Virus record (IMG/VR): IMGVR_UViG_3300033145_001692
Location: 1 to 28,094 of that record
Strand: one strand, 5' to 3'
From: a virus
Length of the DNA stretch: 28,094 bases
Shown here: positions 6,198 to 20,668 of the stretch, one piece after another
How the letters are laid out: every line of letters begins with the position of its first letter
Numbering within the stretch: the first letter of the stretch is position 1
The notes under the pieces: generated by a model
Told to the model about the DNA's origin: nothing
Databases searched by the model: none
Seen by the model: only the letters and a program-made list of their open reading frames with translations
Program-made: the position numbers and the translations under genes

Positions 6198-8252
6198 CTA
6201 CTTTCCGTCAAGAACTTTGCAACATTCCCTCAAGGCAATTGTTAGTCCCGCCTCACTCATGTACATGAATGAATCGGTGAAGAAGGGAATGATCAATTCA
6301 CTGAGAGGATTTGGGTAATCTGACAAGAGTACTGTATTCATCCATCCCAGGATTGCATAGCGAGACTGTTCAGGATCTCCTTGAAACCTTTGAAGCTTTT
6401 TCCGGATGATCTCCCACTTGTTGACTTGGTTTTTGTCAAGGAGTGTTTTGCAGATGTCTCCAACAGTAGCTTCACTGACCACGATGTCCTCAATGGCTTG
6501 AAGGGCTGTTTCTTCTTCCTCGATATCAATCACAGAGTCAAGGAGCCCTATGGCCACCCCTGGAGATCCTTCACTGGCCTTGTTGATTCGAGTTAGGATT
6601 GGTGCCATTTCATCCAGGTCGATCTCCTCAAATTCTTTTTCCACGATGCTTTTGAGGTAACTGACCATTGTGGGACTTGGCAAAGGATGGAGGGCTGTTA
6701 TGTGGCACCGTCTTTTGATAGTTGCGAGGATTTTCTCTGGCTCAGTGGTACACAGGCAGAAGTAAGCATGTGCGGGAGGCTCTTCTAAGATCTTGAGTAA
6801 AGCATCCTGGGCATGTGTCGTAAGTTTGTGACAATTATGAACAAGTGTATTTTCTGCATAGTAAGAAGGATGGCCTTCGATTTCAAGATCATAAAATTTT
6901 ACAAAGCCTTTAGTTCTTTCTTTATCTCCAACAATACTTTGGAAAGATTCGTCATTACTTCCTGGTTGGTAAACCTCAACACTTTCCACCCGAGTTCTGT
7001 CAGTTTCTCCTCTTTCTTTTTGTCTTTCAATATAGCTTGTTTCCTGTTGTGTCCATCTCCATCTATCTCCACACCTATTCTTAGAGATGTGTTCGCTATG
7101 TCTATTTTGTAATTTGTGGGATATCCCGGTTCGAGTTTCATCAATGATACAGCCACTTCCATCTCCCAACCCAATGCCGACGAAAGCAAGAGTTGGGGAG
7201 TAGTGTGCTTTCCATTTCCCCCACGCTGCCCTGGCCAGATGTGCAAAGTTCCATTCAATCTTTTTGTGGCTAACATTTTTTGGATACTGGATTCTTGTTG
7301 CATTGGGTTGTTTTTCTTCATTCTTTCCGAGGAAGCCTTGCACTGCTCTTTGAATTGGGTTGTTTGCATGAATTGATGTTTTCCCCTCTTTATCAATTCC
7401 CGGTGTTCTTTGCTCCTCAGCATTTCTTTCATCTCTGGCCGATTGCTGTTCCATTTTGCTGCACAGCTTAGGGAGCAGAATCGAAAATGGATTTCTTTTC
7501 GAAAGAAGAGGTTGGAACACCATTCGCATGGCACCCATTGTGGTTTTCTGCAATTGTCGCAGTACCTTTGGTTGTGTACTTTTGGTGAAAAGTTCTCTCG
7601 GCAGATACGACAGCGCCTCAGTTTGATCAACATTGTTTTCTCCTTTTAGTGAACTAATGAGTAGCATGTTATCACTAAAGGAACGAAATAGCAAATTGTT
7701 TTTCAGATCTTTTGCTCTAACCCATCCTGTGGGGGTGAGGAATAAGTGATCTTCGGAACAGAAAATAGGCTTGTCAGATGTATTCACTCTGACAATTCTT
7801 TGCAAAGACACTTTGTTTTCAAAAGTTTGGGAGACTTTTGAAAACCCATCTATAGATTCCACCCAGTCTCCACCATTGATTTCTTCTATCGGAACCGATC
7901 CTATACTTGTTCGAATCATTGTTCCGATACCAAAACACTCATCAAATGTCATCACTTTGAACTTACCATCCGTTGGTTGATAGTAAGCCTTCTCCTTGAT
8001 GGCTCTGGCAAAATCAACCCCACCCGTGTTGGCGGCATCATACTCATAGTAGTCAAAATCCGAACAGCCTATCATACTCTTCACAATTCTTGCCAGAGTA
8101 GTCTTGCCAACACCCGCTTTGCCGACAAAGAGGTAAACCTGCTTCCTGTCTTGGGGTTCTCTGTCCAGCATGGTTGTTAGTGCTTCTATTCCCGCTTCGT
8201 TTCCAACGAAATCCTCAAGCGTTTCTGGTCGGTGTTTCAGATTTAATGACAT
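6198..8252 (-). CDS. Clamp-loader ATPase (DnaX/gp44-like) interrupted by an intein
   Basis: The precursor is 684 aa; the host protein after splicing is about 316 aa, the usual size of a phage clamp-loader large subunit. The N-terminus has the typical LKHRPETLEDFVGNE, Walker A GKAGVGKT (residues 44-51) and Walker B VMTFDE. The intein begins at Cys106, right after DE, and the sequence resumes at Cys474 with CHKLTTHAQDALLKILEEPP, the conserved stretch following the DEAD/DEC box. An arginine-finger region IKRRCH follows. The ribosome site is AAGGAG. The start overlaps the polymerase 3' end by 38 bases. With the sliding clamp and polymerase it would form the phage replisome. Confidence 0.9.
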   Translation of the reverse strand: MSLNLKHRPETLEDFVGNEAGIEALTTMLDREPQDRKQVYLFVGKAGVGKTTLARIVKSMIGCSDFDYYEYDAANTGGVDFARAIKEKAYYQPTDGKFKVMTFDECFGIGTMIRTSIGSVPIEEINGGDWVESIDGFSKVSQTFENKVSLQRIVRVNTSDKPIFCSEDHLFLTPTGWVRAKDLKNNLLFRSFSDNMLLISSLKGENNVDQTEALSYLPRELFTKSTQPKVLRQLQKTTMGAMRMVFQPLLSKRNPFSILLPKLCSKMEQQSARDERNAEEQRTPGIDKEGKTSIHANNPIQRAVQGFLGKNEEKQPNATRIQYPKNVSHKKIEWNFAHLARAAWGKWKAHYSPTLAFVGIGLGDGSGCIIDETRTGISHKLQNRHSEHISKNRCGDRWRWTQQETSYIERQKERGETDRTRVESVEVYQPGSNDESFQSIVGDKERTKGFVKFYDLEIEGHPSYYAENTLVHNCHKLTTHAQDALLKILEEPPAHAYFCLCTTEPEKILATIKRRCHITALHPLPSPTMVSYLKSIVEKEFEEIDLDEMAPILTRINKASEGSPGVAIGLLDSVIDIEEEETALQAIEDIVVSEATVGDICKTLLDKNQVNKWEIIRKKLQRFQGDPEQSRYAILGWMNTVLLSDYPNPLSELIIPFFTDSFMYMSEAGLTIALRECCKVLDGK
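6834..7937 (-). mobile_element. Cys-type intein in the clamp loader with an out-of-frame endonuclease gene
   Basis: The intein is 368 aa. It begins CFGIGTMIRTSIGSVPIEEI (block A) and has a block-B-like SEDHLFLTPTGWV. It ends KFYDLEIEGHPSYYAENTLVHN with Cys +1 of the host. The true splicing parts are only the first ~101 and last ~22 residues. The middle ~245 residues are an in-frame reading of a separate endonuclease gene (6899-7633), so the linker looks like no domain (QRTPGIDKEGKTSIHANNP and similar). Cys1, His-Asn and Cys+1 are all present, so splicing should be possible if the long linker is tolerated. The insertion is in the Walker B/DExC motif, a typical conserved intein site. Confidence 0.9.
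6899..7633 (-). CDS. Homing endonuclease (Vsr/DUF559-like) nested in another frame of the intein
   Basis: This 244-residue protein has its own ribosome site, AAAAGGAG, seven bases before the ATG at 7633. Cysteine knuckles come first (CRICRENF...CDNC, CEWC, CSLSC), then a GKHQFMQTTQFKEQC-type segment and WPGQRGGNGKHTTPQ. The C-terminus has the restriction-fold core IGVEIDGDGH...KEEKLTELGWKVLRF, as in Vsr-like/DUF559 and EDxHD-type homing nucleases. It is one frame off the clamp-loader precursor and ends exactly where the intein C-terminal block begins. It would cut the empty clamp-loader allele to spread the intein. Confidence 0.85.
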   Translation of the reverse strand: MLIKLRRCRICRENFSPKVHNQRYCDNCRKPQWVPCEWCSNLFFRKEIHFRFCSLSCAAKWNSNRPEMKEMLRSKEHRELIKRGKHQFMQTTQFKEQCKASSERMKKNNPMQQESSIQKMLATKRLNGTLHIWPGQRGGNGKHTTPQLLLSSALGWEMEVAVSLMKLEPGYPTNYKIDIANTSLRIGVEIDGDGHNRKQAILKDKKKEEKLTELGWKVLRFTNQEVMTNLSKVLLEIKKELKAL

Positions 8253-14044: not shown

Positions 14045-15469
14045 CTACATAGGTGGACGTTGATACTTTGTGAGAACGTCCAAGTGTATTCCACCACGAG
14101 GATTGAACTCTGAATGAACTTCCAGATATACTGGCTGAAGGATTATTACCAAGTCCTGGCGGATCTTGTTGGTGATTGTCTCCATGAATGATCTGTGGTT
14201 TCTGTAGGCAAACATGTACAGCTTGAAAGACTTGGTTTCCAGACACAGTTTAGCTGGGGTATATTCGACAGTGATTTTCGCAAAGTCAGGTTGTCCTGTC
14301 TTTGGACAGTTGTGAACTACTATCCCATTAGCGAAAAAGCATTCCGTATCTTCTACTTCCATATTGTACACATCAGCTTTTCCTATAAATTCAATGAATT
14401 TAACTTTGTGGTTTAACGGAAGTAAATTTCTTTCCAATTTCAACAGTCTTGATTGATTGGATTCTCTAATTTCTCCTCCTGCTCGTTTTACCCATGAACT
14501 GATTGTGGTTGGGTGTACATTGTAATAATTAGCTAAAGTATATATATCATAACCTTGTTCATAGTATTTTCTACATTCTTCGGTACAGGAGTCCATTCTT
14601 GTTTTATGTTTCAAGTTCAAAGATGCTGATTGACTTCGTTTTTCTACCAAATGACCAATCCTTGATTCGATTGTAGAATAATCACACCCATACTTCTTTG
14701 CAAGAGAGTGTATATTTTCACCCTTATTATATTCAGCAACCAATTTGCTTATGTCTAATGAGTCTTCCCATCCATATTGAATCAATCTGTGTAGTTTAGT
14801 GTGTTCCCTATTGTTTGGGAGAACCTCAATATTTGATGGAGTATTGTTGTTATGACATAGATCAGCATGATGGGGAATTTCTTCTTTTGATAATGATCTT
14901 CCTACAATTTCTTCTGCTACCAATCTGTGTCTTCGTTTTCCTCTAATAAAGTCCGAACTTCGTTGATCTACAACCAACTGGTCGTCCTTTTTGAGTTTCT
15001 TTGCTTTCACCCAATTGTAAACTCCCCACCCTCTTCGAACCAAAACTAAATGGTTTAGAGTAACATCTATATACTTTCTTTCCTTCTGCCTATTTGACGA
15101 AATTCCTTTGAACAATTCAAAATGTATTCTAACCATCATGGCATTTCTTTTTGTCTTTCTTACGCTATGGTATTGTTTTGCTACAGGAACATTTCGATCT
15201 TTGTCAAATGAAAATACTATTCCCTCAGTTCCAACAAGATCTTTGATAGGAACACCACAAGGATAGTCATTTTCATTGGTAGCTATGTCAATGAAAGTGT
15301 TGCCTCCAAGACACAATGAGGTGAACTCTACCGTATCAAGCTTTACGGTGTAGTCACTGTCGGGGTACTTGTTGTCAAATGTTTCGAGCATGTTCGGCCC
15401 GGGGTTGGAATACTTGTAATCGGTTTCCTTTGAACCTAACTGTTTGAGGTGTTCTACGTCATCATTCAT
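14045..15469 (-). CDS. queF: QueF, preQ0 reductase, interrupted by an intein
   Basis: The precursor is 474 aa; the spliced enzyme is about 139 aa, the size of the short (type I) NADPH-dependent 7-cyano-7-deazaguanine reductase. Residues 1-52 end DTVEFTSL. The sequence resumes at Cys388 as CPKTGQPDFAKITVEYTP, where the Cys is the catalytic thioimide-forming residue. The QueF signature LETKSFKLYMFAYRNH and the end NPRGGIHLDV follow. It reduces preQ0 to preQ1, so the modified base in this phage should be at the preQ1 level. The start has no strong ribosome site. Its 5' end is duplicated at 15695-15743. Confidence 0.95.
   Translation of the reverse strand: MNDDVEHLKQLGSKETDYKYSNPGPNMLETFDNKYPDSDYTVKLDTVEFTSLCLGGNTFIDIATNENDYPCGVPIKDLVGTEGIVFSFDKDRNVPVAKQYHSVRKTKRNAMMVRIHFELFKGISSNRQKERKYIDVTLNHLVLVRRGWGVYNWVKAKKLKKDDQLVVDQRSSDFIRGKRRHRLVAEEIVGRSLSKEEIPHHADLCHNNNTPSNIEVLPNNREHTKLHRLIQYGWEDSLDISKLVAEYNKGENIHSLAKKYGCDYSTIESRIGHLVEKRSQSASLNLKHKTRMDSCTEECRKYYEQGYDIYTLANYYNVHPTTISSWVKRAGGEIRESNQSRLLKLERNLLPLNHKVKFIEFIGKADVYNMEVEDTECFFANGIVVHNCPKTGQPDFAKITVEYTPAKLCLETKSFKLYMFAYRNHRSFMETITNKIRQDLVIILQPVYLEVHSEFNPRGGIHLDVLTKYQRPPM
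14309..15313 (-). mobile_element. Cys-type intein with HNH endonuclease in QueF
   Basis: The intein is 335 aa, from Cys53 (CLGGNTFIDIATNENDYPCG) to the final VVHN, with the QueF catalytic Cys as +1. The block-B region reads KYIDVTLNHLVLVRRGWGV. An HNH core is visible as IPHHADLCHNNNTPSNIEVL followed by NNREHTKLH. Two helix-turn-helix repeats (NIHSLAKKYGCDYSTIESRI and DIYTLANYYNVHPTTISSWV) probably bind the homing site. The end KADVYNMEVEDTECFFANGI gives blocks F/G. All splice residues are intact. The HNH and DNA-binding parts suggest it is mobile or recently so. Confidence 0.92.
15421..15469 (-). repeat. Copy 1 of a 49-base duplication (queF 5' end)
   Basis: These are the first 16 codons of queF. 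The same 49 bases recur at 15695-15743 with three base differences near the ATG; the other 33 or more bases are identical. Confidence 0.95.
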
Positions 15470-16005: not shown

Positions 16006-16644
16006 TTACATCATTGATATCTTGATCATTTCCAATGCTTCTGCCTTTGCTGAGGAATCTGACAGGAATACTCCGTGAATAGCTGAGTTTGTCATCCCAG
16101 CATTACCATACTGATTGACACCACGACAACTCATGCATTGGTGAATGGCCCTCATCATTACCATACAGGCAAGAGGTTTGGCATGTTTGACAAAGCTGCT
16201 CAAGACATCCCCACAAAGATTTTCCTGAATTTGAGGCATCGCCGCATAATGTTCAATGCATCTTGCAGGTTTGGATGCTCCAACAAGGACTTTGTCCGGA
16301 ATGTACAACACCCAAGCCTTGCCTACGAAAGGAAGAAAATGATGTGAGCAGGTGGATACGAAATGGATATTGTCGAGCATTATTATCTGATTGTTCCTCC
16401 GTTCTTGAGAAATGGGATGTTCTTTTGATATTCCCATCACTTCGGCAACAACTTCATTCGGAAAAACCGTCCACCCTTCGAACTCTTTGCCGACGTTTCG
16501 AAACAGTTGGAAGTACATCCGACCGATTCGTTCAGGAGTATCTTCCATATTGGGATCTGTCATGTCCAATCCCAGAGCTTGCATCATAAGGGCAACGTAA
16601 TGGTGTACAGGACCAGTATAAGGGTCCGAAGGACTATGTTTCAT
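16006..16644 (-). CDS. folE: GTP cyclohydrolase I
   Basis: This 212-residue protein has the GTP cyclohydrolase I fold and length. Residues after MKHSPSDPY include the helical start and NMEDTPERIGRMYFQLF. Zinc ligands are in STCSHHFLPFVGKAWVLYIP (Cys and His) and IHQCMSCRGV (second Cys). The stretch VLVGASKPARCIEHYA carries the conserved core. It makes dihydroneopterin triphosphate from GTP, the first step to preQ0. I start it at the ATG at 16644, overlapping the queC stop by 11 bases with AAAGGT upstream; the upstream TTG at 16662 is inside queC. It stops six bases before the tRNA-like RNA. Confidence 0.95.
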   Translation of the reverse strand: MKHSPSDPYTGPVHHYVALMMQALGLDMTDPNMEDTPERIGRMYFQLFRNVGKEFEGWTVFPNEVVAEVMGISKEHPISQERRNNQIIMLDNIHFVSTCSHHFLPFVGKAWVLYIPDKVLVGASKPARCIEHYAAMPQIQENLCGDVLSSFVKHAKPLACMVMMRAIHQCMSCRGVNQYGNAGMTNSAIHGVFLSDSSAKAEALEMIKISMM

Positions 16645-18001
16645 TTGGATGTAACCTTTCAATCAGTGGATCAGGCACCCCAGCTTCTTCAAAGCCTTTT
16701 GCTCTTAACACACATGCTGGGCATTTCCTACAAGGTACTGTTTGTCCTTCATAGCAAGTGTGAGACCATGCCAGGGCAGACATACAGCCAGGAATTGTTT
16801 GTGCCAGCTTCACTGATTCAGTTTTAGTTAAATATCCTAACGGGGTGTGTATTGTAGTTTTTTTATCAATCCCTTTCCTCAAAGTTCTTTGCATATTGAA
16901 CATGAATTCTGGGGTGCAATCAGGATATGCTGCTCCAAGATACTCCTGGCTCATTTGTAATTCAACATACACCTTGCTAAGTTTTTCCTTTGAGGTTTTC
17001 ATTCTGATTCGGGGGTTAATTTGTGGATAGACGGTTTGGGTAATATTTCCATCAGAAACGTACAAAGTCTTCTCTGGTTTATTTACATACCCTTTTCCAA
17101 GGAATCTTTTGATATCTTTCAGAAGATGCAGGTTGTTTTGGTAGAACATGTAGTTAGGATAAAAAACAGTAACTCCATTTTTTGTTGTGTATTTCCTTTT
17201 TCCTACTCCGCCATCTCCTTCCCAGAAACCACTCAACCAATCCCAGCTGATTTTTGGAAATGGGGATATAATATCCATATTAAATTGACGAAACATTGAT
17301 CTGGCTTGGCGTCTCTTCATTTTTGAACAGAGCTTTGGGTATATTTTTTCCATAACAGGAAATACGTTCTTCCTGTAATTGATTGTCAACACATAATTGA
17401 CATTTCCTGATTTCTTCGATTTGTCTGGGTATACATGACAAGTTACTCCTAACTCTTCGACAAGGAATTGTTGGATTCTCTCAATTATTCCTAAATCATT
17501 TTGTGACAATCCGATTGTGGGGATTTTCTTTCTGTCTGATCCAGCCACTCCTCTTGAGAACCACCCCTCAGCTTCCCAGAAACCACTCAACCAATCCCAA
17601 TTTATTGGTGGATAAGTCCAGAAATCTGAAGTTGTGGTTCCTGTAATGATATTCTTGATCTTGTGCTTGTAGGCGAACATTGCTGCAAGTGTCAGGAAGA
17701 TGATATTCCTGCCAGGAACAAATGATGCAGGCAATGATGGGTTGTTAGGGTGAGCTTCTTCAACTGGGCCTTTGGAGAGTAAAGCAGAATTCCCAACACT
17801 TTGCATGATATCTGTAGTAATACAGAACCAGGGGGCCTTTGCTATGCTGGCAATCTTCTTAGCTGAATCAACCTCAATAGCATGACGTTGACCATAAGCA
17901 AAAGTCAACGCCACACATTCGAAGCCATGCTCAAGAGCCCAGAACAAGGAGGTTGTTGAGTCTTGGCCTCCACTTAGGAGAACTACGGCTCTTTTCGGCA
18001 T
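16634..18001 (-). CDS. queC: QueC, preQ0 synthase, with in-frame LAGLIDADG insertion
   Basis: The reading frame is 455 residues, against about 230 for QueC. N-terminal QueC features are intact: VVLLSGGQDSTTSL (ATP pyrophosphatase P-loop), FAYGQRHAIE, SFVPGRNIIFLTLAA and IITGTTTSDF. QueC resumes around residue 355 with YLGAAYPDCTPEF and closes with the zinc site CYEGQTVPCRKCPACVLRA. Between them lie about 227 residues of LAGLIDADG endonuclease. The host enzyme converts CDG to preQ0. The ATG at 18001 has AAGGGGT upstream. Whether the product is spliced, or works with the insert in a loop, cannot be read from sequence. Confidence 0.92.
   Translation of the reverse strand: MPKRAVVLLSGGQDSTTSLFWALEHGFECVALTFAYGQRHAIEVDSAKKIASIAKAPWFCITTDIMQSVGNSALLSKGPVEEAHPNNPSLPASFVPGRNIIFLTLAAMFAYKHKIKNIITGTTTSDFWTYPPINWDWLSGFWEAEGWFSRGVAGSDRKKIPTIGLSQNDLGIIERIQQFLVEELGVTCHVYPDKSKKSGNVNYVLTINYRKNVFPVMEKIYPKLCSKMKRRQARSMFRQFNMDIISPFPKISWDWLSGFWEGDGGVGKRKYTTKNGVTVFYPNYMFYQNNLHLLKDIKRFLGKGYVNKPEKTLYVSDGNITQTVYPQINPRIRMKTSKEKLSKVYVELQMSQEYLGAAYPDCTPEFMFNMQRTLRKGIDKKTTIHTPLGYLTKTESVKLAQTIPGCMSALAWSHTCYEGQTVPCRKCPACVLRAKGFEEAGVPDPLIERLHPNET
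17218..17245 (-). repeat. 28-base direct repeat, copy in the second LAGLIDADG motif
   Basis: This sequence is identical base for base to 17572-17599 and encodes WDWLSGFWE in both. Such nucleotide identity between the two halves of an endonuclease is more than the protein motif requires. Confidence 0.95.
17572..17599 (-). repeat. 28-base direct repeat, copy in the first LAGLIDADG motif
   Basis: This is the partner of 17218-17245, identical over 28 bases and 354 bases apart, which is the size of one endonuclease half. Confidence 0.95.
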
Positions 18002-18708: not shown

Positions 18709-20304
18709 TTAAGAATCTTCTTCAAGTGCGAGAAACTTGTGGATCTGTGTGTTCAATTTGACATGGAACAGGTAGCTTTCTTTCATCCATCGTAGCAGGG
18801 TTGGGGCGGGTAACAGCCCGAAAACAGGGGAGAATGCAAATTGGGCTTTAACCCCAATAGATTCCATATCGTTCAGCACTCGATGGGCTCTAATGTAATC
18901 GTTGTAATCTGCAATGAGGAACTTGACGAAATCTGTTTCTCTTAATTCCCGAAATAAGATCAATTCCATCATTCTGTGGTCAACTGCTGAACTTGGAAGT
19001 TTGTAGTCAACAACCCAACCATCGACATACTCATTTCCAATGAGTTTGTAGGAGCCATTTGTTTCGACCGTGATTGTGTATCCATAGCGTTTCAGCATTC
19101 GGACAGTTTCGAGGAAGTACCCCCCTTGCATCAAAGGCTCTCCGCCCGTGATTGTCACTTTCTGACAACCAATCTCTTCAAGCTGAAAGAGCAGGACATC
19201 GTTGTGCATCTGAGGTTTCTTTTCAAGAGCGTAGGTTGTATCACAGTTATGTACCCACATATTGTCGATCAAGTAGGTATTGTGTGGGGTACAAGACAAG
19301 TTGTAAACTTTCAATGGTTTTGGTCTTATAGAAGGTGGGAATTGCTTCCTGTCAATTGACTTTATATTTTGTACTTCAAAACCATTTAGTTTCAACATCC
19401 TTAACTGACTTTCAATTGTCAGGTTTTTTCCATCTTTTCTGTCCCCCTTCCAAAAATTGTAACCCCTATGATGGGTGACATTATGACAAGAGTTACAAAT
19501 AATGGATATATTTGACAACGAATCGTTTTCTTGATTGCCATCAATATGATGTGGAATTACTTTTGTTTCTTCCATACAATCGAAACATGTATTCAATGCG
19601 CCTTCACGACACAAATCAGATAAATAGTCATAGTTAGGTGTTCTACTGCCTCCCTTCCAATTAGGATTGTTGCTTCCCAATTTCGATATGGAAAGTTTCT
19701 TTCTGATTTCTTCTTTTTTTTCCTTAGATAAAAGATCCCAAACAGGCACATATGTTCCAGACTCTTTTTTCTTTTGGATTGTCTTTGAGACTTCCTTTCC
19801 CATTAAAACATAATCAGTATTTGAAGCTGATTTTTGGGCAACTTCTTTCCTTTTCATGGGATTCTTACTCCCTATTTTTGAAAAGGAAAACTTTTCTTCA
19901 GGAGATGAGTGTAATATCATATCACCTTCCTGTAATTCCTTGGCGAGCATCATGCCTTTGCTTGTAAAAAAAGGATGCTCTTCGGTAACAAAATATACCC
20001 TGCCATTTATTTTCATTTTCAACCATTGATCTACTTCTCGATTAGTAGTTTCCACAACCGTTGTTTCCGCCAACTCACCTTTGGTGTCATAGGTTATCAG
20101 CACATCCCCAGGAACAACTTCATTCAATTTCTTGTTGGGTCCACGCAATGTTGTTATTTTTGGAATTCTACTTCCTTCACGAATCCCAAAACAGTGTTTG
20201 CATCTCAGGTTGCATCCCGCCACACGGATGAATGTAGTGAGAGTTCCTTGCCCATAACGATTGACTTCGCCATCGATTGAGTTGAATAAGCTATATACCC
20301 GCAT
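18709..20304 (-). CDS. queE: QueE, radical SAM CDG synthase, interrupted by an intein
   Basis: The precursor is 531 aa from the ATG at 20304, chosen because GGAGGT is four bases upstream; a GTG just before is also in frame. The host part is about 215 residues, the normal QueE size. It has SLFNSIDGEVNRYGQGTLTTFIRVAGCNLRCKH, then after the intein CDTTYALEKKPQ. Joined, this gives the radical SAM CxxxCxxC, whose last Cys is the +1 residue. The SAM motif TITGGEPLMQ follows. QueE turns carboxytetrahydropterin into carboxy-deazaguanine. The start overlaps the queD end by 14 bases. Confidence 0.95.
   Translation of the reverse strand: MRVYSLFNSIDGEVNRYGQGTLTTFIRVAGCNLRCKHCFGIREGSRIPKITTLRGPNKKLNEVVPGDVLITYDTKGELAETTVVETTNREVDQWLKMKINGRVYFVTEEHPFFTSKGMMLAKELQEGDMILHSSPEEKFSFSKIGSKNPMKRKEVAQKSASNTDYVLMGKEVSKTIQKKKESGTYVPVWDLLSKEKKEEIRKKLSISKLGSNNPNWKGGSRTPNYDYLSDLCREGALNTCFDCMEETKVIPHHIDGNQENDSLSNISIICNSCHNVTHHRGYNFWKGDRKDGKNLTIESQLRMLKLNGFEVQNIKSIDRKQFPPSIRPKPLKVYNLSCTPHNTYLIDNMWVHNCDTTYALEKKPQMHNDVLLFQLEEIGCQKVTITGGEPLMQGGYFLETVRMLKRYGYTITVETNGSYKLIGNEYVDGWVVDYKLPSSAVDHRMMELILFRELRETDFVKFLIADYNDYIRAHRVLNDMESIGVKAQFAFSPVFGLLPAPTLLRWMKESYLFHVKLNTQIHKFLALEEDS
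19246..20193 (-). mobile_element. Cys-type intein with zinc-HNH endonuclease in QueE
   Basis: The intein is 316 aa, from CFGIREGSRIPKITTLRGPN to DNMWVHN, with the third iron-sulfur Cys of QueE as +1. Block B is VYFVTEEHPFFTSKG. NUMOD3-like DNA-binding motifs are present (IGSKNPMKRKEV and KLGSNNPNWKGG). The HNH domain has zinc-binding pairs: CFDCMEETKVIPHHIDGNQE, then NISIICNSCHNVTHH. Block F/G is KVYNLSCTPHNTYLIDNMWV. All splicing residues are intact. It shares the start CFGI with the clamp-loader intein, although the endonucleases are unrelated. Confidence 0.93.
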
Positions 20305-20668
20305 CACACCTCCATTCGGCGAAACAGCCCTCAGTCTCCCACAACTTAATGGAGATCAGATTGATTCGATGACTGACTGACGTTGTAAAGGATATTCGTA
20401 TTCGGTGAAGGGAACTCCTGACAATATTCTCAGCCGTCGGGTTGCTGATAATATTATTGAGAAGGGAGTGATCAAGTTCTTCAATTACAGCCTTGTTGAC
20501 AAGGGACTTCAGTTCTTTGAGGTCCATCACCATTCCAGTGTCAGGATCAACAGGCCCCTCTATCCTTACTTCCATTTTGTACGAATGTCCGTGGAGATTT
20601 TTGCAATCTCCGTCGTATTTGGGCAACCGGTGTGCCGCTTCGAAATGAAACGTGGCTCCTAAAATCAT
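20291..20668 (-). CDS. queD: QueD, 6-carboxytetrahydropterin synthase
   Basis: This 125-residue protein is the size of QueD. Zinc ligands are His13 (FEAAHRLPKY) and His26/His28 (CKNLHGHSY), with Cys22 as the reactive cysteine. GMVMDLKELKSLV and LDHSLLNN carry the catalytic Asp/His region, and LWETEG carries the substrate Glu. It converts FolE product to 6-carboxy-tetrahydropterin. The ribosome site is GAGGAG. The ATG overlaps the previous small gene as ATGA. It is the first enzyme gene of the modification cluster. Confidence 0.95.
   Translation of the reverse strand: MILGATFHFEAAHRLPKYDGDCKNLHGHSYKMEVRIEGPVDPDTGMVMDLKELKSLVNKAVIEELDHSLLNNIISNPTAENIVRSSLHRIRISFTTSVSHRINLISIKLWETEGCFAEWRCDAGI

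Follow-up and report, generated by a model that had tools for sequence, protein, structure and literature searches.

The clamp-loader gene in a 28,094-nucleotide stretch of phage DNA (IMG/VR record IMGVR_UViG_3300033145_001692, positions 1 to 28,094; the whole stretch is called the window below) contains an intein, and within this intein lies an endonuclease gene in a different reading frame. The question is what each of the two frames encodes, and why both have stayed open over some 730 bases. According to the evidence presented here, the locus is very probably a mobile intein belonging to a nested type that is widespread, with the clamp-loader mRNA being read in two frames.

The intein and the gene inside it

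The features of the locus, all on the minus strand, are the following.

6198-8252 (minus): clamp-loader precursor gene (DNA pol III gamma/tau-like AAA+ ATPase; PF13177, phrog_5846), 684 aa, with in-frame intein
7938-8252 (minus): N-extein, whose C-terminal end is the Walker B sequence ...VMTFDE
6834-7937 (minus): intein, 368 aa, from C1 to H367-N368, followed by +1 Cys; inserted in Walker B at DE/CHK (the slash marks the junction)
7683-7937 (minus): Hint N-terminal subdomain, intein residues 1-85, outside the overlap (pLDDT ~97)
7068-7643 (minus): linker in the intein frame, residues 99-290, predicted to be disordered and conserved only as the endonuclease imposes
7640-7645 (minus): Shine-Dalgarno sequence AAGGAG of the endonuclease gene, within the intein frame
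6899-7633 (minus): endonuclease gene, 244 aa, ATG start, EDxHD / DUF559 family (Pfam, 3r3p match, fold)
7463-7612 (minus): N-terminal Cys-rich, zinc-finger-like region of the endonuclease, CxxC pairs up to C57
6905-7117 (minus): endonuclease catalytic domain, with conserved D178, E189, D191, H195 and D204 intact
6900-7007 (minus): dual-coding zone, Hint C-part residues 311-346 over the endonuclease C-terminus
6971-6994 (minus): core of the dual-coding zone, endonuclease LGWKVLRF over the intein strand RVESVEV
6201-6833 (minus): C-extein, beginning CHKLTTHAQDALLKILEEPP...

The precursor matches PF13177 (E=7e-18) and phrog_5846 (E=5e-54), and the clamp-loader similarity is present on either side of the insert that bears the intein motifs. 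The intein corresponds to C106 to N473 of the precursor, with HN473/C as the C-terminal junction, and the spliced clamp loader is predicted to have 316 aa, with the Walker B sequence DECHK restored intact. Intein-free clamp-loader homologues are commonly carried by phages. The class 1 intein residues C1, H64, H367, N368 and Cys+1 are all present; in the family alignment (A2), C1, H367 and N368 are invariant and H64 is nearly so. Compared to the PDB, the intein matches the gp41-1 intein (6qaz, E=2e-20), which is also ranked best by Foldseek for the AlphaFold2 model (E=5e-7). In this model the Hint fold is formed by residues 1-85 and 311-368 with a pLDDT of ~97, while residues 99-290 are mostly below 50. 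The clamp-loader intein that the initial annotation placed at 6834-7937 is thus recovered through both its splice motifs and its fold: by sequence and model it is a class 1 intein with a Hint fold, and it is predicted to splice.

The endonuclease gene starts ~100 codons into the intein, and all of its 735 bases are inside the open intein frame, in the register where the third position of an endonuclease codon is the first of an intein codon. Its AAGGAG (7645-7640) is separated from the ATG (7633) by 6 nt. The complete gene of about 730 bases in a second frame, with a ribosome site of its own, is therefore there as first proposed. However, its end was stated to coincide with the intein C block, which is not so: it stops 65 nt short of the intein end, and overlaps the Hint C-terminal part by ~36 residues.

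The encoded protein belongs to DUF559 (E=1.5e-13) and gives a profile match to I-Bth0305I (PDB 3r3p, E=3e-4). Its AlphaFold2 model is confident throughout (mean pLDDT 93), and Foldseek again ranks 3r3p first (prob 1.00, E=0.005). D178, E189, D191, H195 and D204 are conserved across the endonuclease family. Judged by predicted fold and residues, the inner ORF is an EDxHD homing endonuclease of the I-Bth0305I type, and cleavage activity is predicted for it. The two enzymes share the catalytic fold and the conserved residues, but I-Bth0305I is encoded by a group I intron and does not overlap with a splicing protein.

We propose that ribosomes reading through the first frame would yield the precursor, from which the gp41-1-like Hint domain would excise itself and join DE to CHK in Walker B. 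Ribosomes starting at the internal Shine-Dalgarno sequence and ATG would, in the second frame, yield the free EDxHD endonuclease. This enzyme would cut intein-free alleles within the Walker B codons, and these alleles would then acquire the whole intein through repair (homing). The proposal draws on what the sequences show, namely the two frames with their common register, the avoidance of stops, both predicted folds, recent lateral movement in a related Vibrio group and the dual constraint at the 3′ end; splicing, internal initiation and the cleavage site are what we infer from these.

Nested relatives and the constraint on each frame

Relatives were searched for with the endonuclease protein only, or with an endonuclease alignment. 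Since the query is the endonuclease frame alone, an open second frame in the matches is not a product of selection by the search. We obtained 88 distinct loci (identical ones removed) in which a long host ORF encloses the endonuclease with the frame relation seen in the window; nearly all good matches are of this type, with the third frame closed. The design is thus shared by over 80 diverse genes of phages and bacteria, the intein N and C motifs being located for 86 of the 88 loci. According to Pfam, the hosts are SF2/SNF2 helicases and AAA+ clamp loaders, and the insertion is almost always directly after the Walker B "DE", now and then after DEAH or a similar motif. At the DNA level, no relatives of the window were found among phage records. 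A sequencing error as the source of the double frame was rejected, dozens of independent contigs having the same arrangement.

Three further kinds of relatives serve for comparison below. In two fractured loci (L106 and L199) the N-extein and IntN form one ORF, the endonuclease is in the middle, and IntC and the C-extein are in another ORF. Free-standing endonuclease genes include L061, L094, L100 and L190. Four inteins (L118, L154, L158 and L166) have an in-frame DUF559 endonuclease, their hosts being a phage Mu F-like protein and archaeal radical SAM proteins, and they provide a useful outgroup to the nested type.

It is conceivable that the endonuclease is dead cargo, its ORF being a fossil in an element of which only the intein matters. 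Inteins normally pass through a phase of HEG decay, and the HEG-free mini-inteins L195 and L197 share their site with nested ones. However, the window retains the catalytic and Cys residues intact, these are conserved throughout the family, and the Shine-Dalgarno sequence is kept. In addition, substitutions are concentrated at endonuclease third positions: in close pairs, the changes at endonuclease codon positions 1, 2 and 3 number 1/0/18, 1/0/18 and 4/3/15. As these are intein first positions, it is the endonuclease that is under selection over the linker, so the test of codon substitutions suggested at the outset comes out in its favour. We consider the dead-cargo explanation very improbable.

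Another option is that there is no internal initiation and that ribosomes enter the endonuclease frame from the clamp-loader/intein frame by programmed frameshifting, which would give a fusion protein. Frameshifting is indeed known in dnaX-type clamp-loader genes, but here the endonuclease start has a strong Shine-Dalgarno sequence and an ATG, and the conserved protein opens with its Cys-rich region directly after this ATG, which makes the option very improbable. In the family, a Shine-Dalgarno sequence of at least 5 nt is found at 52 of the 78 chosen starts vs 3.5% of internal ATGs, the former figure being inflated because the starts were picked partly by this very feature. In four loci (L008, L009, L011 and L012) the Shine-Dalgarno sequence GAGGT just upstream of the start is formed by the codons of the intein "DEV" motif, and this ribosome site is therefore of dual use.

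We now turn to the intein frame. Its conservation was compared to a null in which the endonuclease protein is kept and intein-frame stops are forbidden. Over endonuclease residues 60-205 the identity in the intein frame equals or nearly equals the null (0.202 vs 0.201 at residues 100-140), whereas over residues 205-244 it is above it (0.28 vs 0.21, then 0.17 vs 0.11). The peak, with z up to 24, is at the intein-frame RVxSVE strand over LGWKVLRF. In the window this strand, RVESVEV, is made up of intein residues 316-322 (nt 6972-6992); its Arg is present in 60 of 79 members and its Val in 61 of 79. In the endonuclease frame, the Gly of LGWKVLRF is GGG in 59 of 77 members, vs 35% of other Gly codons, and the Leu that follows this Gly is TTG or CTG in 55 of 68, vs 43%. 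The third frame, used as control, also rises at some columns of the core, which the sharing of codons between frames makes unavoidable, but it does so less. The fractured L106 and L199 retain a strand of the RVESVEV type, while the free-standing L061 and L100 are without it. From alignment and model, the last ~35 endonuclease codons, which lie over a structured Hint strand, are thus truly dual-coding.

These results bear on the possibility that the whole intein-frame segment has evolved a function of its own, as a structured or sequence-specific linker. The genuine conservation of the last ~35 codons speaks for it, as does the fact that the Hint fold can be stabilised by in-frame HEN domains or long linkers (PMC6801210). 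However, over endonuclease residues 60-205 the identity found in the intein frame is close or equal to the null, the model is disordered there, and the segment is absent from the HEG-free mini-inteins and the fractured forms, which makes a function of the whole segment just as improbable as the frameshift. The "meaningless" linker of the initial annotation accordingly holds for most of the length, which is conserved only at the null level and is disordered. It does not hold for the last ~35 codons: these specify the Hint strand and the residues leading up to block F, and both of their frames are conserved.

The openness of the intein frame was assessed by permuting synonymous codons within each endonuclease, such that both the protein and its codon usage are kept. 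In the window the intein frame has 0 stops vs 10.8 expected, and 0 of 1000 permutations are stop-free. For 80 non-redundant members (<70% identity) it contains 1 stop vs 961 expected, while the third frame contains 1625 vs 1492 expected. In the free-standing relatives and the in-frame DUF559 inteins, the stop counts match expectation. The same is true for the fractured L106 and L199 upstream of LGWKVLRF, with 23 and 25 stops vs 25.0 and 24.6 expected. The lack of avoidance in these un-nested or fractured relatives indicates that the intein frame is held open only as long as one continuous precursor needs to be translated. Both the improbability of the second frame by chance and its preservation for read-through of the host protein, as originally suggested, are thereby upheld, and stops in the intein frame of nested relatives, which would have spoken against them, amount to that single one among the 80 members. 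A second frame left open by chance, through the composition or codon usage of one endonuclease gene, has a practically negligible probability: high GC or codon bias does make a stop-free frame easier, some GC-rich members expecting only 4-6 stops, but the permutation test with the endonuclease frame alone as query, the stop-filled third frame and the un-nested relatives rule it out.

The single stop is an in-frame TAG (L042:3108-3110) located in the linker; the nested clamp-loader intein of L042 is otherwise intact, and the stop is either a nascent fracture or a sequence error. With the former in mind, L042 was checked for a new start of its C half, but there is no convincing one.

In the register of the window, an intein-frame stop requires an endonuclease NNT codon followed by one that starts with AA, AG or GA. 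As NNT to NNC is always synonymous, every such stop can be removed without altering the endonuclease. In the other register, it can be deduced from the code that stops such as ATG-A are not removable by this change. The register is thus probably fixed by common descent together with the genetic code, the latter part being a deduction.

Mobility, origin and known systems

A case of mobility is found in Vibrio helicases. Between L011 and L169 the difference is ~0-9% per 25-codon bin within the intein, including the non-overlapped Hint N part, and mostly 11-35% per bin outside it, with sharp edges. The same site is empty in L194 (DE/AHHC), holds 150-aa mini-inteins without endonuclease in L195 and L197, and the 356-aa nested form in L011 and L169; the +1 residue is Ala in the empty allele and Cys in the invaded ones. 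This pattern is as homing predicts and shows recent lateral movement in the Vibrio helicase group; it concerns a related helicase intein and not the clamp-loader intein itself. In L196 and L198, a second intein is located in the P-loop of the same helicase, in the first part of the CDS, in addition to the Walker B mini-intein.

The phylogeny is based on one exploratory FastTree run with 145 columns and weak deep support. In it, the nested genes group together apart from the in-frame ones, the fractured L106 and L199 adjoin the nested L064 (support 0.93), and the free-standing relatives are placed within the nested clade, so that they look like escapes rather than the source. The initial annotation had envisaged a mini-intein swallowing a free-standing gene once. 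Instead, with 88 nested loci, the architecture appears old and widespread, and in this exploratory tree the free-standing genes fall inside the nested clade. The simplest reading of the sequences is that one old nested stock has given rise to both the fractured and the free-standing forms.

Several known arrangements were considered for the window. An intron (group I or II with HEG) was rejected, as there is no Rfam match in the window and the host frame is open throughout. Fractured genes with split inteins, having a Vsr/EDxHD-type endonuclease between the intein halves, were reportedly described by Dassa and colleagues in 2009, and the gp41-1 intein, the best structural match of the window intein, is said to stem from that work. 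There the host gene is in two pieces, whereas the window has one continuous stop-free ORF of 684 codons, and this arrangement was rejected for it. It is L106 and L199 that show the fractured arrangement, their endonuclease being inside the nested clade. Canonical HEN-containing inteins (including L118, L154, L158 and L166) share the Hint domain with the window intein and have a related nuclease where the HEN is usually located, but in the same polypeptide and without overlap or stop avoidance; in the window the endonuclease is in another frame than the splicing domain, and this option was rejected too.

Other inteins and endonuclease domains are present in the window. A QueF gene (14045-15469, minus) has an in-frame intein with HNH/helix-turn-helix parts at TSL/CLGGN...VHN/CPKTG, i.e. 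the canonical architecture within the same phage. A QueE-like radical SAM gene (18709-20307, minus) has an in-frame HNH intein inside its Fe-S cysteine motif, and a QueC gene (16634-18001, minus) is interrupted by in-frame LAGLIDADG domains but has no recognisable Hint parts.

Phage genes with an out-of-frame endonuclease are already known from ShiLan (PMC11855218). As in the window, a mobile endonuclease is hidden there in the other frame of a host gene that is open through the insertion. However, it is of the HNH family, no intein splicing motifs or ribosome site were found, and the insertion is predicted to stay in the protein; with an EDxHD endonuclease and Hint domains, the window does not belong to this type. 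Gosselin, Arsenault and Gogarten (2025, bioRxiv 10.1101/2025.01.02.630785) reportedly describe actinobacteriophage inteins of "non-canonical architecture", and PMC11855218 cites that work for overlapping frames in actinobacteriophages; these inteins may include out-of-frame endonucleases and thus similar cases. In the part of the literature covered, no description of nested EDxHD inteins, of the dual-coding strand or of a link to fractured genes was found.

The chances seem to us evenly balanced that inteins with a nested out-of-frame gene constitute a class of their own, both ancient and widespread, in which a single dual-coding stretch ties the C-terminus of the endonuclease to the C-terminal strand of Hint, and that they are the stock from which fractured-gene split inteins arise by losing a linker frame that is no longer needed. 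The nested and fractured forms share sequence, register and dual-coding zone, which would offer a route to the origin of split inteins. It is also important to point out that annotation overlooks the nested endonucleases: in the Vibrio, Pseudomonas and Corynebacterium phage records examined, the site is annotated only as helicase, P-loop NTPase or hypothetical protein. Finally, the family is large, and as a set of long gene overlaps in DNA phages it is statistically unambiguous. Why the genes overlap is plain: one protein has to be read through while the other is translated independently.
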